From NCBI RefSeq assembly GCF_040530035.1, contig NZ_JBEWCD010000001.1, forward strand, positions 248,001-312,000: 64,000 bases of DNA, given 5' to 3'. Made by a program: the position numbers and the translations under genes. Source of the stretch: Roseibium sp. HPY-6 (GTDB lineage Bacteria; Pseudomonadota; Alphaproteobacteria; Rhizobiales; Stappiaceae). The notes beneath the pieces are model-generated. The model had not been told where the DNA came from. It was given only the letters and a program-made list of their open reading frames with translations, and ran no database searches. Positions 1,138 through 6,964 of this stretch are shown one piece after another. Within the stretch, counting starts at the first letter, position 1. Every line of letters begins with the position of its first letter.

Positions 1138-2670
1138 TTAAAGCGGAATGTTGTCGTGCTTTTTCCACGGCAACTCGACCTGTTTTGACCGAAGCAACGC
1201 AAGCGCCCTTGCCACACGCCTGCGCGTGGAGTGCGGTCGGATTACGTCGTCGATGTAACCGCGCTCGGCAGCTACGAAGGGATTGGCAAACCGGTCCTCG
1301 TAGTCCTTGGTGCGCTTGGCGATTTTGTCCGGATCGCTCAACTCGGAGCGATAGAGAATTTCAACGGCCCCTTTTGCACCCATCACTGCGATCTCAGCGC
1401 TCGGCCAGGCATAATTGATGTCGCCGCGAATGTGTTTCGAACTCATCACATCGTATGCGCCGCCATAGGCCTTTCGCGTGATAACGGTGATTTTCGGAAC
1501 CGTGGCCTCTGTGAAGGCAAACAGCAGTTTTGCGCCGTGCTTGATAAGCCCGCCATATTCCTGCGAGGTTCCCGGCAGAAAGCCCGGAACATCAACAAAT
1601 GTGACAATCGGGATATTGAAGCAATCGCAGAAACGCACAAACCTGGCGGCTTTTCTGCTGGCGTCAGAGTCCAGAACACCGGCCAGAACCATGGGCTGGT
1701 TTGCGACGATACCGACTGAGCGGCCTTCAATACGCCCGAAGCCCGTGATGATATTGCCTGCAAAGCTTTTCTGAATTTCGAAGAAGTCACCCTCGTCAAC
1801 AGTCTTCAGAACAAGCTCTCTCATGTCGTATGGCTTGTTCGGGTTGTCTGGCACAAGCGTATCAAGGCTCGTGTCGATCCTGTCCGGGTCGTCGTAATTG
1901 GTCAGTTCCGGCAATTCCGCCCGGTTGTTCATGGGAAGAAAGTCGATCAGCCGCCGCATTTCCAGCAAGGCTTCAACATCATTGTCGAATGCCCCGTCGG
2001 CGATTGAAGACTTGGTGGTATGGATAGACGCACCGCCCAGTTCTTCAGCCGTGACGGTTTCGTTCGTGACCGTTTTGACGACGTCGGGCCCCGTCACAAA
2101 CATGTAGGATGTGTCACGAACCATGAAGATAAAATCGGTCATCGCGGGCGAGTAGACGTCTCCACCCGCGCAAGGTCCCATAATGAGCGAAATCTGCGGA
2201 ATGACACCGGATGCCAGCACATTTCTCTGGAATACCTCGCCATAGCCTCCGAGCGCAGCAACACCTTCCTGAATACGCGCACCGCCGGCATCAAACAGAC
2301 CGATAACCGGCGCCCGGTTCTGAAGTGCGATATCCTGCAACTTGGTTATTTTTTCAGCGTGCGCCTCGGAAAGCGAACCGCCGAAGACCGTGAAGTCCTT
2401 GGAAAACACATACACCGTGCGGCCGTTGACTGTGCCCCAACCGGTCACAACACCATCGCCGGGAATGTGCTGCTGTTCCATACCGAAATCCGTGCAGCGA
2501 TGTTGCTTGAACATGTCGAACTCTTCGAAAGAGCCCTCATCGAGCAGCACTTCAATACGTTCACGGGCGGTCAACTTGCCCTTGGCATGCTGGGAATCGA
2601 TCCGACGTTGGCCGCCACCGAGCCGTGCCGTTTCCCGGCGCTTTTCCAATTCGGCCAGAACTTCTTTCAT
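1138..2670 (-). CDS. pccB: Acyl-CoA (propionyl-CoA) carboxylase, beta (carboxyltransferase) subunit
   Basis: 510 residues, the usual PccB length. It transfers carboxyl from biotin to propionyl-CoA, giving methylmalonyl-CoA, in cytosolic propionate, odd-chain fatty acid and branched amino acid catabolism. The N-terminus has the family pattern GGGQRRID...GKLTARERI; two crotonase-like carboxyltransferase halves follow, with glycine-rich oxyanion regions ([46 protein letters not shown]). The ATG has a GGAGGA Shine-Dalgarno. The biotin-carrying alpha subunit (pccA) is not in this window; genes just downstream run the other way, so any partner must lie further out. Substrate preference (propionyl over other acyl-CoAs) is inferred from overall similarity. 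Confidence 0.93.
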
Positions 2671-2869
2671 CGGATCCTCCCAATACGCAGTTCATGAGGC
2701 CGTAACACGTTCCTGGATCAAGGCAAAGTCAGCACATGGGCTTAAGCGCTTCGAAACGCGTGCGCATGCGTCCCTTCATGCCTGGCTGTCTCATGGAGGG
2801 CTCGATGCTCGGGTGAACGGGCAATCGTTCCTGCTCAAATACTAGGCAATCGCGCCGCGATATTGTTCT

Positions 2870-2897
2870 TTGACACACTTCAGAATTTTGTCATGAT
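2870..2897 (+). promoter_or_regulatory. Candidate sigma-70-type promoter of the Anbu operon
   Basis: TTGACA at 2870-2875, a 16-base spacer, then CATGAT at 2892-2897. The first base of the operon's start codon is at 2931, leaving a leader of about 25 bases containing a strong GGGGAGG ribosome binding site. The -35 box is perfect and the -10 box weak, so this is a plausible but unproven call. Confidence 0.4.
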
Positions 2898-2930
2898 TGC
2901 GCAACAAGCAAAATAGCCGAAGGGGAGGCA

Positions 2931-4355
2931 ATGGCGGACGATCGGACTTTCTTCAACGAAATGCTCGACGATGCCGGTGGCGCGAGATCACCCTATTCGA
3001 GGCTCGCAGCCTGGCTCGAAGACAAACCCGCTAATTTCCTGACCAAAAAGAGCCGCGACGCTGAGACAATCTTCCGCAGGCTCGGCATCACTTTCGCTGT
3101 TTACGGCGCCGAGGAGGCGACAGAACGGCTGATACCCTTCGATCCCATTCCCCGCATTATCTCAGCTGCCGAATGGCGCAGACTGTCCGCCGGTATCGAC
3201 CAGAGAGTGCGGGCGCTGAACGCGTTTATGCATGATATTTATCATCGCCAGGAGATTCTTCGCGCCGGCATCATCCCGGCTGACCTTATCCTGCAGAACG
3301 AGGCCTTCCTTCCCGAAATGGCGGGCTTCACCCCGGCCCGCAAGGTTTATGCTCATATCATCGGGACGGATCTCGTCAGGGTGTCGGAGAATGAATTCTA
3401 CGTTCTGGAGGACAATACCCGTACGCCGAGCGGTGTTTCCTACATGATGGAAAACCGCGAGACTATGATGCGGTTGTTTCCCGAACTCTTTCAAACGCAC
3501 GCCGTAGCACCCGTCGAACAATATCCCGAACTTTTGCGCAGGACGCTTGAAAGCGTTGCTCCGGATCCGGCGAAATCCACGCAGACCATCGTTGTTCTGA
3601 CGCCCGGGATCTACAATTCCGCCTATTTCGAACACGCGTTCCTGGCGGACTCAATGGGTGTGGAACTGGTTGAAGGCCGGGACCTCTTTGTTGATGCCGG
3701 TAAGGTGTTCATGCGCACAACGCGTCAGCCCGAACAAGTCGATGTTATCTACCGGCGGATTGATGATGCGTTTCTGGATCCCCTCACCTTCAACGCTGAC
3801 AGCATGCTCGGCGTTCCCGGGCTGTTTGATGCCTACAGAGCCGGCAATGTCACAATCTGCAACGCGCCGGGAACCGGGATTGCGGATGACAAGGCAATCT
3901 ATGCTTATGTTCCTGACATCATTGAGTTTTACACAGGTCAAAAGCCCATCTTGAACAATGTGCCGACCTGGAACTGCTCGCGCCCCGACGACCTTGCCTA
4001 TGTGCTCGATAACCTGGCAGACATCGTGGTGAAGGAGGTTCACGGATCTGGCGGATACGGCATGCTGATCGGCCCGACGGCTTCCAAACGTGAGATTGCG
4101 GAGTTCAGGAAAGTCCTCGAGGCGACACCTACCAACTACATCGCTCAACCCACGCTCGCCCTGTCTGCTTGCCCCACGCACGTCGCGTCCGGTGTTGCGC
4201 CCAGGCATGTCGACTTGCGGCCCTTCGTCCTGATTGGCGATCAGGTCAGGATCACGCCGGGTGGTCTAACACGTGTTGCGTTGAAAAAAGGATCTCTGGT
4301 CGTGAATTCGAGCCAGGGCGGCGGCACCAAGGATACCTGGGTACTTGAGGACTGA
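2931..4355 (+). CDS. Circularly permuted ATP-grasp protein (DUF404/DUF407 type)
   Basis: 474 residues, typical for this family, which keeps the ATP-grasp fold in permuted order and is predicted to ligate a carboxylate to an amine using ATP (peptide or amide bond). Family signatures visible: LEDNTRTPSGVSYMMENR (about residues 158-175), the glycine-rich VKEVHGSGGYGMLIGP (about 366-381), and the near-terminal R.TPGGLTRVAL...NSSQGGGTKDTW. No signal peptide, so cytosolic. It is first of four co-directional genes (alpha-E, transglutaminase-like, Anbu peptidase); the alpha-E gene starts 6 bases after its stop. Comparative genomics links this gene set to Anbu and predicts a peptide-synthesis or tagging role; the real substrate is unknown. 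Confidence 0.88.
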   Translation: MADDRTFFNEMLDDAGGARSPYSRLAAWLEDKPANFLTKKSRDAETIFRRLGITFAVYGAEEATERLIPFDPIPRIISAAEWRRLSAGIDQRVRALNAFMHDIYHRQEILRAGIIPADLILQNEAFLPEMAGFTPARKVYAHIIGTDLVRVSENEFYVLEDNTRTPSGVSYMMENRETMMRLFPELFQTHAVAPVEQYPELLRRTLESVAPDPAKSTQTIVVLTPGIYNSAYFEHAFLADSMGVELVEGRDLFVDAGKVFMRTTRQPEQVDVIYRRIDDAFLDPLTFNADSMLGVPGLFDAYRAGNVTICNAPGTGIADDKAIYAYVPDIIEFYTGQKPILNNVPTWNCSRPDDLAYVLDNLADIVVKEVHGSGGYGMLIGPTASKREIAEFRKVLEATPTNYIAQPTLALSACPTHVASGVAPRHVDLRPFVLIGDQVRITPGGLTRVALKKGSLVVNSSQGGGTKDTWVLED

Positions 4356-4361
4356 CGTTTA

Positions 4362-5312
4362 ATGCTCGGAAGAACCGCTTCTTCGCTGTTTTGGATGTCC
4401 CGCTATCATGAGCGGGCCCAAAACGTAGCTCGCCTTCTGGAGGTTGCCTATCGCGGGGCTATCATGTCCCACCGCGGACAGGAACATGGTACTCATTGGG
4501 CATTTGCGCTTGCGTGCTCAGGCTGCGAGCCCGAATTCAAGGAAAAATACGACGAGTTGCATATCCGCAGCGTCGCCGTTTTCCTTCTTTTTTCAAAAGA
4601 AAACCCGGTCAGCGTTCGCAACAGCCTGGAACTGGCGCGCAATAATGCACGCGCGGTTCGAACCGGTATCACCGCTGAACTCTGGGAAGCCATCAACACG
4701 ACCTGGATCGAATTCACCGAGGTCAATCCGCAAACAATTACCCAGGAGAGGTTGCCCGACTTTTTGGCCTGGGTGAACCAGCGGGCTCATCTGTTCCGTG
4801 GCGCATTGCTCAACACTGTGCTGCGAAATGACGGCTATTTCTTCTCGCAGATGGGCAATTTCGTCGAACGCGCTGACAACACTGCACGGATCCTGAACAC
4901 ACAATACTGGTCTTTGCTGCCGGACAGCGACATTGTCGATGACGGGTCCATGGAAAAGTACCAGTGGTCGGCAATTCTCAGGGCACTGTCAGGACGTAGA
5001 AGCTACAGGTTCGCTTACCCGAACGCGCGGCTCCGGGCGTTCAACATTGCCGAATTTCTGATCTTGCGAAAGGAGATGCCGCGTTCCCTGGCGCATTGCT
5101 ACAATTGGATCGCGGACACGGCGGAAGACCTTGCCCAATTCTATAGTGCGCGCGAGCCCAGCCTTGATCTGGCAAAGGACATCGCACTCAGCTTGTCGGA
5201 AAAACAGATGCGGGAAATCTATCAGGACGGCCTGCACGACTATCTCACCGAATTCATCGGCAGGAACAATCAATTCGCGTTTGAGCTATCCAAAGACTAC
5301 AATTTTTCCTGA
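4362..5312 (+). CDS. Alpha-E domain protein (DUF403)
   Basis: 316 residues, nearly all predicted alpha-helix and without signal peptide, matching the alpha-E family. The start MLGRTASSLFWMSRYHERAQ is characteristic: these proteins begin with an LxRxAxxLFWxxRYxERAEN-like motif. A second family-like segment is FFSQMGNFVERADNTARIL near residues 166-184. It almost always travels with permuted ATP-grasp proteins, sometimes fused to them, and is thought to act as their partner; no activity is established. Translation is probably coupled: the ATG follows the upstream stop by 6 bases and its Shine-Dalgarno (GAGG) lies inside the end of the upstream gene. Confidence 0.87.
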   Translation: MLGRTASSLFWMSRYHERAQNVARLLEVAYRGAIMSHRGQEHGTHWAFALACSGCEPEFKEKYDELHIRSVAVFLLFSKENPVSVRNSLELARNNARAVRTGITAELWEAINTTWIEFTEVNPQTITQERLPDFLAWVNQRAHLFRGALLNTVLRNDGYFFSQMGNFVERADNTARILNTQYWSLLPDSDIVDDGSMEKYQWSAILRALSGRRSYRFAYPNARLRAFNIAEFLILRKEMPRSLAHCYNWIADTAEDLAQFYSAREPSLDLAKDIALSLSEKQMREIYQDGLHDYLTEFIGRNNQFAFELSKDYNFS

Positions 5313-5339
5313 CCGACACAACCTTCTCCCAGGTGCCGC

Positions 5340-6158
5340 ATGCAACTGACAGTCCGACATTCCACCCGTTATCGCTATGACGCGCCACTGGCAAATGCGA
5401 TGCAGCAACTGCGCCTGACACCGGAAAACGGTCCGGCGCAAAGGGTACTGGAATGGTCGATCGACGCGCCCGGCATTTCGAGGGCAACGACTTACAAGGA
5501 TGCTTTCGGCAACCGTGTCCATATGGTTTCACGCGGTGAACCTGTGGAAGACGTTGAAATTGTCGCAACAGGCATCGTTGAAACCCGGGATACGAACGGC
5601 GTTTTGGGGCAAGAGGCAGATGCGCTGGTGCCGCCGCGTATCTATACGCGCGTGACGCCGCTGACCCAATCCAATCAGGCGATTCGCAGGCTCGCGGCCC
5701 ACGCGGAAACCGATGATCGCATCTCGGGCTTTCACGCGCTAATGCATGCCATCAGAGACAAGGTTGACTACAAGATCGGTGTTACCGAAACGCACGCCCC
5801 GGCCTCGGCTGCTTTGGCGGCTGGTGAAGGCGTCTGTCAGGATCACGCACACATCTTCATTGCGGCCGCCAGGTCCCTGGGCGTGCCGGCGCGCTACGTT
5901 TCCGGTTATCTGCTGCTGGAAGAAGAGCAGGCATCCGAAGCGCACCACGCCTGGGCCGAGGTTCTCATAGAAGGTCTGGGCTGGACCGGTTTCGACGTGT
6001 CCAACGCTGTGTGTCCGACCGATCGATACATTCGCCTGACGGCCGGGCTGGATTCGCGGTCCGCAGCCCCTATCCGCGGCATCAGGTTCGGTGGTCTGGA
6101 AGAAAATCTGCTGGTTGAAGTCGACGTTACGCAGGCAGTTTTTCAACAGCAGCAATGA
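5340..6158 (+). CDS. Transglutaminase-like cysteine peptidase family protein
   Basis: 272 residues: an N-terminal beta-rich domain (MQLTVRHSTRYRYDAPL, the usual start of the family) then a transglutaminase core. The Cys-His-Asp triad can be placed: Cys156 in GEGVCQDHAH, His193 in AHHAWAEV, Asp209 in GWTGFDVSN. These folds cleave or re-form amide or isopeptide bonds, so in this operon the protein could trim or transfer the product of the ATP-grasp ligase. No signal peptide, so cytosolic. The gene starts 27 bases after the alpha-E stop. The substrate cannot be read from sequence. Confidence 0.88.
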   Translation: MQLTVRHSTRYRYDAPLANAMQQLRLTPENGPAQRVLEWSIDAPGISRATTYKDAFGNRVHMVSRGEPVEDVEIVATGIVETRDTNGVLGQEADALVPPRIYTRVTPLTQSNQAIRRLAAHAETDDRISGFHALMHAIRDKVDYKIGVTETHAPASAALAAGEGVCQDHAHIFIAAARSLGVPARYVSGYLLLEEEQASEAHHAWAEVLIEGLGWTGFDVSNAVCPTDRYIRLTAGLDSRSAAPIRGIRFGGLEENLLVEVDVTQAVFQQQQ

Positions 6159-6232
6159 AAGTCGTTTTTCAGGCCCCCAATCCCTCCACGCTGTGTTAAC
6201 AGTTCAAGGGGAAACGTCTGAGGGGCTCAGGG

Positions 6233-6964
6233 ATGACGTATTGTGTCGGCTTGAAACTGGATCGCGGCCTGGTGTTTGCTGCGGACACGCGCACCAACGC
6301 CGGTGTCGACAACATAGCCACATACAAGAAGCTTCATGTCTGGGAAGAGCCCGGCGAGCGCGTCATCACACTCCTGTCCGCCGGCAATCTCGCAGTCACG
6401 CAGGCCGTGGTGTCACTCCTGAGCGAACACATAACCTCTGCGGACAATGACCGCGCAACTTTAATGACTGCAAAGACCATGTTTCAGGTCGCCAGGCTTG
6501 TTGGCAGTGCGGTCAGGGAAGTGAAATCCATCGATGGCGAAGCGCTTGCAACAAGCGCAGAGAACTTTTTCGTTACGTTCATTCTCGGTGGCCAGATCGA
6601 AGGCGAAGAGCCGCGAATGTTCCAGATCTATGCCGCGGGAAACTTCATTGAAGTTGGCGAGGACACACCGTTCCTGCAGATCGGCGAGCATAAATACGGA
6701 AAGCCCATTCTCGACCGCGTCACACGGGCGGACATGCGACTTGGCGAAGCTGCGAAGCTGGTTCTTCTGTCCTTTGATTCCACAATACGCTCGAACCTTT
6801 CGGTCGGCATGCCCATCGATATGTTGCTCTACAACAAGGATACGTTTTCAACAGACCGGCAGGTCCGCATCGAACAGGACGATCCCTATTTTCAAAAACT
6901 GTCCCATGGATGGTCTGAAAAATTGCGCGCGGCCTTTGGCGACATAGACGAATTTGACGTCTGA
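6233..6964 (+). CDS. Anbu-type proteasome-like peptidase
   Basis: 243 residues, an Ntn-hydrolase related to proteasome beta and HslV subunits (ancestral beta-subunit family). The second residue is Thr (MTYCVGLKLD), so removing Met exposes the catalytic N-terminal threonine without a propeptide. Asp18 in AADTRTNAG and Lys32/33 in TYKKL match the Thr1-Asp17-Lys33 arrangement of the proteasome active site. A GGGG-containing ribosome site precedes the ATG. Family members form open-ring or helical assemblies; their substrates are unclear and no dedicated unfoldase is encoded here. Fourth gene of the operon, 74 bases after the transglutaminase-like gene. Confidence 0.9.
   Translation: MTYCVGLKLDRGLVFAADTRTNAGVDNIATYKKLHVWEEPGERVITLLSAGNLAVTQAVVSLLSEHITSADNDRATLMTAKTMFQVARLVGSAVREVKSIDGEALATSAENFFVTFILGGQIEGEEPRMFQIYAAGNFIEVGEDTPFLQIGEHKYGKPILDRVTRADMRLGEAAKLVLLSFDSTIRSNLSVGMPIDMLLYNKDTFSTDRQVRIEQDDPYFQKLSHGWSEKLRAAFGDIDEFDV

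Follow-up and report, generated by a model that had tools for sequence, protein, structure and literature searches.

The window analysed here, a stretch of 64,000 nucleotides that forms part of contig 1 in the 7.03 Mb genome of Roseibium sp. HPY-6, contains at 2931-6964 an operon that joins a circularly permuted ATP-grasp ligase with an alpha-E protein, a transglutaminase-like (TGL) protein and Anbu—a proteasome-like hydrolase with an N-terminal threonine. Across genomes, Anbu depends on the ligase and not vice versa. It is an accessory of a core of ATP-grasp and alpha-E, with or without TGL, because 52 of the 53 genomes carrying Anbu in a phylum sample of 150 genomes also hold an ATP-grasp, while 31 of the 83 genomes with an ATP-grasp above the family cut-off have no Anbu. 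The initial annotation, made from the sequence of the stretch, presented the operon as the strongest candidate for an undescribed biology. This does not hold, as the operon, Anbu structures, proposals of ligation or tagging and nitrogen induction in Pseudomonas putida have already been published (PMC5666114, PMC6376114, PMC8050072, PMC7801951; here and below, papers cited by PMC number are drawn on for the excerpts available). The window operon is an unremarkable copy of this known kind, intact and present genus-wide; what is added here is the dependence of Anbu on the ligase, the duplication within alpha-E and a degenerate fused ATP-grasp.

Distribution of Anbu and its ligase core

Within the genus, Anbu was found in 44 of 45 genomes and the ATP-grasp family in all 45. 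The distance from Anbu to a stand-alone ATP-grasp gene is 2650-3343 bases for 43 of the 44 Anbu genes (that of the window's genome included), the exception being G189, where Anbu lies at base 541 of its contig, the assembly being split into about 680 contigs, and no stand-alone ATP-grasp was matched. In the phylum sample, which holds 52 Anbu genomes besides that of the window, 29 loci have the four genes in order and on one strand (one of them, L061, with an extra upstream TGL-like open reading frame, ORF), 15 have Anbu, ATP-grasp and alpha-E nearby in another arrangement or without the small TGL, one has only a long TGL near Anbu and one ends at a contig end. Among the 80 loci nearest to the window's, exactly four genes are present in 55 and Anbu is solo in 6, the rest being partial, rearranged, split or provided with extra copies, several of them at contig ends. 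The ATP-grasp occurs in 52/53 genomes with Anbu versus 31/97 without it (Fisher p 2.9e-17, a value not corrected for phylogeny), and 11 of the 12 genomes with a locally solo Anbu carry an ATP-grasp elsewhere in the genome. Of the four-gene set proposed as a unit by the initial annotation, the conserved linkage thus stood up to this neighbourhood survey, but the unity did not, as the ligase occurs in many genomes without Anbu and Anbu can lie elsewhere. A divergent solo Anbu-like protein at L036:9173-9934 (minus strand), 33% identical to the window Anbu, may belong to another proteasome-like family.

Inspection by eye of 23 of the 31 genomes with ATP-grasp and without Anbu (20 loci plus three) found ATP-grasp and alpha-E together in all of them, with no constant gene in Anbu's place after the core. 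Nor did the grouping of ORFs in 173 loci find a recurrent fifth partner: the commonest nearby group (29 loci, within four genes of the core) comprises ABC-transporter-like ATPases by sequence appearance and was set aside, and the other recurrent neighbour groups come mostly from over-sampled Rhizobiales.

The presence of Anbu follows that of the ligase rather than that of an unfoldase. The operon contains no ATPase unfoldase, as had been noted from the sequence, and a search of 130 Anbu loci, many ending at contig ends or at 10 kb, with the genome's own HslU as sole query returned a single weak match (E 6e-4), which lies about 9 kb away from Anbu. HslV and HslU have a locus of their own on contig 2 of the same genome (L222:4118-6511), in which an acetyltransferase-like ORF lies between hslV and hslU.

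The four genes are tightly spaced, with gaps of 6, 27 and 74 nt, and their order, strand and family matches are as first annotated (Table 1). The window Anbu aligns with solved Anbu chains, namely 5nyj (E 1e-106, residues 1-243, full length) and 5nyf (E 3.7e-106) as well as 5loy, 5nyw and 5lox. Upstream, the operon adjoins a divergently oriented carboxyltransferase gene, and downstream a gene for an MgtE magnesium transporter. In Roseibium limicola, the nearest named relative by Anbu among the matches listed (79%), the operon is likewise flanked by carboxyltransferase, MgtE and ATP12 genes; among the 173 loci compared, the flanking carboxyltransferase and ATP12 were matched in R. limicola only, whereas MgtE had one further match, a weaker one, in L037.

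Table 1. Positions of the operon genes and of the adjoining upstream features in the window
Feature	Position	Strand	Size and matches
Circularly permuted ATP-grasp ligase	2931..4355	+	474 aa; Pfam PF14403 CP_ATPgrasp_2 E 1.5e-170; PDB 3n6x E 1.1e-198
Alpha-E protein	4362..5312	+	316 aa; Pfam PF04168 E 8.5e-80
TGL Cys-His-Asp protein	5340..6158	+	272 aa; PF01841 Transglut_core E 5.9e-23, PF08379 Bact_transglu_N E 1.9e-22; PDB 3isr E 2.5e-10
Anbu, proteasome-like N-terminal-Thr hydrolase	6233..6964	+	243 aa; Pfam Proteasome E 1e-8; PDB Anbu chains
Carboxyltransferase gene, divergent from operon	1138-2670	-	upstream neighbour
Upstream region between carboxyltransferase gene and operon	2671..2930	+	shared by both

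Active sites and the alpha-E repeat

The catalytic residues first annotated as intact were borne out in all three predicted enzymes. Counted over the window and the best 80 of at least 596 Anbu loci, which are close relatives of the query and not a random sample, T2, D18 and K33 of Anbu (Thr1, Asp17 and Lys32 of the mature protein) are conserved in 81/81, with G51 and S180 likewise invariant. The protein begins with Met1-Thr2 and has no propeptide. Thr1, Asp17 and Lys32 correspond to the candidate catalytic residues of Yersinia bercovieri Anbu (PMC6376114). An active-site substitution within the genus, which would have refuted the initial annotation, was not seen in the 29 copies fetched from the 43 other genus genomes with Anbu, all of which retain M1, T2, D18, K33, G51, S180, D182 and S183.

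In the same set of loci, the TGL triad is conserved as C166 in 65/65, H203 in 64/64 and D219 in 63/63. The window TGL carries the complete Cys-His-Asp triad and is predicted to be catalytic; the handling of isopeptide bonds that was also ascribed to it is what its family membership would predict. The window ATP-grasp is a predicted active ligase, having D147, E160, N162, the DDK motif at 319-321 and the Gly-rich GSGGYG loop at 372-377, with E160 and N162 found in 70/70 among the window and its nearest loci. Its D147...E160-x-N162 arrangement resembles D318...E330-x-N332 of Escherichia coli GspS, a likeness of motif only, as the HMM alignment was not significant. The three GspS residues are magnesium ligands.

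The alpha-E protein consists of two tandem helical repeats, each with an ER motif (E17-R18 and E169-R170), and its sequence indicates that it is an internal tandem duplication. An HMM-HMM alignment of the N-terminal with the C-terminal half covers 130 columns (probability 98.6, E 5.7e-16) and places the ER motifs in register, while 20 column shuffles and one reversal used as controls gave E 0.06 or worse. An AlphaFold2 model of the protein is all-helical (pLDDT 92.2); no PDB relative was found by sequence at E 1, and the predicted model had no confident PDB match. In Pfam, the domain is described as alpha-helical and as having a conserved ER motif, with nothing further, and the duplication was not found stated in the excerpts of the surveyed literature, a survey that did not extend to Iyer et al. 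2009. In one relative, a 682-aa frame (L198:4262-6307, minus strand) encodes alpha-E and, after it, TGL; this natural fusion suggests contact between the two.

The fused ATP-grasp of the second cluster

About 1.8 Mb from the operon, at approximately 2,052,860-2,059,550 of contig 1 (L035:2861-9551), lies a second cluster that encodes a TGL-DUF2126 protein, an 801-aa fusion of ATP-grasp with alpha-E and a further TGL. DUF2126 is described by Pfam as a putative amidoligase. With fused ATP-grasps defined as those of at least 700 aa, 25 fused and 145 stand-alone proteins from the fetched loci were aligned, excluding four ATP-grasps of odd length (L054, L106, L116 and L212). All 145 stand-alone proteins keep D147, E160, N162, K321, G374, G375 and G377, whereas the equivalents of E160, N162 and K321 occur in 0/25 fused proteins, which mostly have S or G at 160 and R at 162. 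The Gly-rich loop of the fused proteins is likewise eroded (G374 in 1/25, G375 in 6/25, G377 in 0/25), and K368 is found in 6/25. However, D147 is still present in 22/25, which weighs against full loss, and 38 positions are common to fused and stand-alone proteins, e.g., D71, R92, R176, E234, D283, N311, R430, R448, D468 and W470. The alpha-E half of the fusion keeps both ER motifs (24-25/25) but has lost D172, R176, W202 and others. A degenerate fused ATP-grasp was not found reported in the surveyed excerpts, Iyer et al. 2009 again lying outside the survey.

A long TGL protein (>900 aa) is encoded in 20 of the 25 fusion loci and contains DUF2126 in 9/9 of those tested. The five loci without it are two on short contigs (L087, L160), two that end at a contig end (L086, L169) and L189, which has none. 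A stand-alone ATP-grasp is found in the same locus in 20/25 and a called Anbu in 10/25. At L038, L040, L044, L045, L047, L048, L084, L085 and L086 the clusters are merged, Anbu lying next to both the fusion of ATP-grasp with alpha-E and the long TGL. Within the genus, the fused protein is more dispensable than Anbu, because a frame of fused length (judged by length only) is present in 38/45 genomes versus 44/45 for Anbu.

On our reading, the fused ATP-grasp of the second cluster has probably become a pseudo-ligase, the ligase chemistry there being probably supplied by DUF2126. A wider reading, possible though on balance doubtful, would give the pathway two ligase arms that run on different engines: the ATP-grasp of the Anbu operon would be the working ligase, while the fused pseudo-ligase, stripped of metal and nucleotide residues but with part of its conserved core retained, would bind the acceptor or product and present it to TGL-DUF2126, both arms sharing the same intermediate and Anbu being an optional hydrolase. 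This reading is weakened by the retention of D147 and strengthened by the presence of DUF2126 in every long TGL tested. If it is true, the fused protein would act as a reader of the product and could serve as bait in the search for it.

Nitrogen control, predicted chemistry and known systems

The stand-alone ATP-grasp genes of relatives are enriched in upstream sites of the sigma-54 type. A -24/-12 site matching at least 10 of 12 positions lies upstream of 46/145 of them compared with about 1.5% for the 1786 other genes of these loci; the 27 control genes in the Fisher test of this difference were reconstructed from fractions that had been rounded, and the 145 upstream regions lack independence. 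The enrichment agrees with published data. In P. putida, PP_2685 and PP_2688 rise by log2 4.44 and 3.99 on nitrate versus ammonium (PMC8050072), PP_2686-2688 are 11- to 37-fold up under nitrogen limitation, the operon being called likely NtrB/NtrC controlled (PMC7801951), and a study of nutrient limitation lists PP2685, PP2686 and PP2687 at 11.1, 6.6 and 7.1 (PMC3325844). The NtrC regulon of Burkholderia cenocepacia includes DUF404/407, DUF403 and two TGL genes, Anbu not being named in the excerpts (PMC5491218), and in marine metagenomes an association with urea-metabolism domains has been reported (PMC3597751). The region upstream of the window operon contains a sigma-70-like TTGACA-N16-CATGAT at 2870-2897, from a scan that gave 2 sites where 2.2 are expected by chance, and a Shine-Dalgarno-like run, GGGGAGG, at 2922-2928.

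The function that we would tentatively back, at somewhat less than an even chance, is a cycle of amide ligation and hydrolysis, nitrogen-linked in many relatives, in which Anbu acts without an unfoldase. The ATP-grasp would spend ATP to convert a carboxylate into an acyl-phosphate that is then joined to an amine. Alpha-E would complex with ATP-grasp and TGL as an acceptor-binding or docking subunit, a partnership suggested because it is fused to ATP-grasp in the paralogous cluster (25 loci) and to TGL at L198. TGL and Anbu would hydrolyse or transfer the resulting amide, acting on small or unfolded substrates. The cycle would probably serve nitrogen scavenging or recycling, because the operon belongs to the nitrogen-limitation response in some studied relatives. 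Anbu architecture, ATP turnover and nitrogen induction in P. putida have been established by others, according to the excerpts; that the three steps form one pathway is what we infer.

Several observations weigh against this cycle. The excerpts of the literature give no substrate, product or peptidase activity for Anbu: it did not act on standard substrates, and the operon proteins were not seen to form a specific complex (PMC5666114, PMC6376114). Six of the 52 other Anbu genes of the phylum sample are locally solo, and G094 is the sole Anbu genome of 53 with no ATP-grasp match at all; its Anbu (L049:6038-6775, minus strand) has an intact M-T start and keeps T2, D18 and K33. The upstream region of the window has no good sigma-54 site, the best matching 8/12 at 2794, and none was found in the 500 bases upstream of the R. 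limicola operon. In P. putida, the increase of Anbu itself (PP_2685) was limited to 1.12, 4.81 and 1.45 fold in three strains whose neighbouring genes PP_2686-2688 went up 11-37 fold (PMC7801951), so that co-regulation of Anbu with its neighbours is uneven between the P. putida studies.

Other readings of the operon give Anbu a different task. The published proposal of protein tagging (PMC5666114, PMC6376114), in which the ATP-grasp with alpha-E would attach a tag, TGL would remove or transfer it and Anbu would degrade or de-tag the protein, as in the Pup/proteasome system, accounts for a ligase and an Ntn-hydrolase sharing an operon and for the dependence of Anbu on the ligase. We nonetheless consider it unlikely, as no tag candidate emerged (no Rfam match and no recurrent fifth neighbour fit to be a tag or unfoldase; small ORFs were listed, their conservation not being tested) and pull-downs among the operon proteins were negative in the excerpts (PMC6376114). 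Alternatively, Anbu could be a general protease by which nitrogen-starved cells speed up their bulk protein turnover, either with a housekeeping unfoldase that it shares or with none, the ligase genes providing an activating modification. Nitrogen induction in P. putida (PMC8050072, PMC7801951, PMC3325844) and the invariant Anbu active site fit this idea, yet it is distinctly improbable given that peptidase assays were negative for several Anbu proteins (PMC5666114, PMC6376114), that the HslU-like neighbour amounts to the one weak match above and that the genome's HslV is already paired with HslU. Finally, a transpeptidase or ligase role for Anbu, which would couple the peptide product of the ATP-grasp to an amine, has a precedent in the proteasome-family relative connectase (PMC8665760), and would suit both the context of predicted bond makers and a Pa-Anbu that binds inhibitor while having no peptidase activity (PMC5666114), but it is most improbable, since the excerpts record no transfer activity and liken the Anbu active site to that of hydrolytic beta subunits (PMC5666114).

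Anbu was named in 2008 and has solved structures (PMC5666114, PMC6376114, PMC8665760). The present results narrow the search for its function to the ATP-grasp and alpha-E core and make nitrogen limitation the condition of interest in lineages such as P. putida. The pseudo-ATP-grasp/alpha-E fusion would offer a natural bait for the product of the amide cycle, if product binding has been retained. The interest attaches to what Anbu does and to the paralogous pseudo-ligase rather than to the window's own operon.

Among known systems, the Anbu operon of P. putida (PP_2685-2688) and Y. bercovieri has the same four families as the window and matching candidate residues Thr1/Asp17/Lys32, and the conserved order ATP-grasp, alpha-E, transglutaminase-like, Anbu has been given before (PMC6376114). 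The P. putida operon is nitrogen-induced and likely under NtrB/NtrC control (PMC7801951), whereas the window has no recognisable sigma-54 promoter. Anbu homologues form open split-ring or helical assemblies (PMC5666114, PMC6376114). RimK/RimB and RloABC (ATP-grasp, aspartic peptidase and inactive transglutaminase-like protein) likewise pair an ATP-grasp with a peptidase but use other families of both, and the main text of the paper that describes them mentions neither alpha-E nor Anbu (PMC12239564). HslVU resembles Anbu in having an Ntn-hydrolase of the proteasome family; Anbu differs from it in having no linked HslU-like gene save the single weak match. A tagging system of permuted ATP-grasp, glutamine synthetase (GS)-like amidoligase, alpha-E and Ntn-hydrolase was reportedly proposed by Iyer et al. 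in 2009. The window's genome has both halves of such a system, the Anbu operon and the second cluster, but places them about 1.8 Mb apart and carries in the latter a fused ATP-grasp without the key residues.

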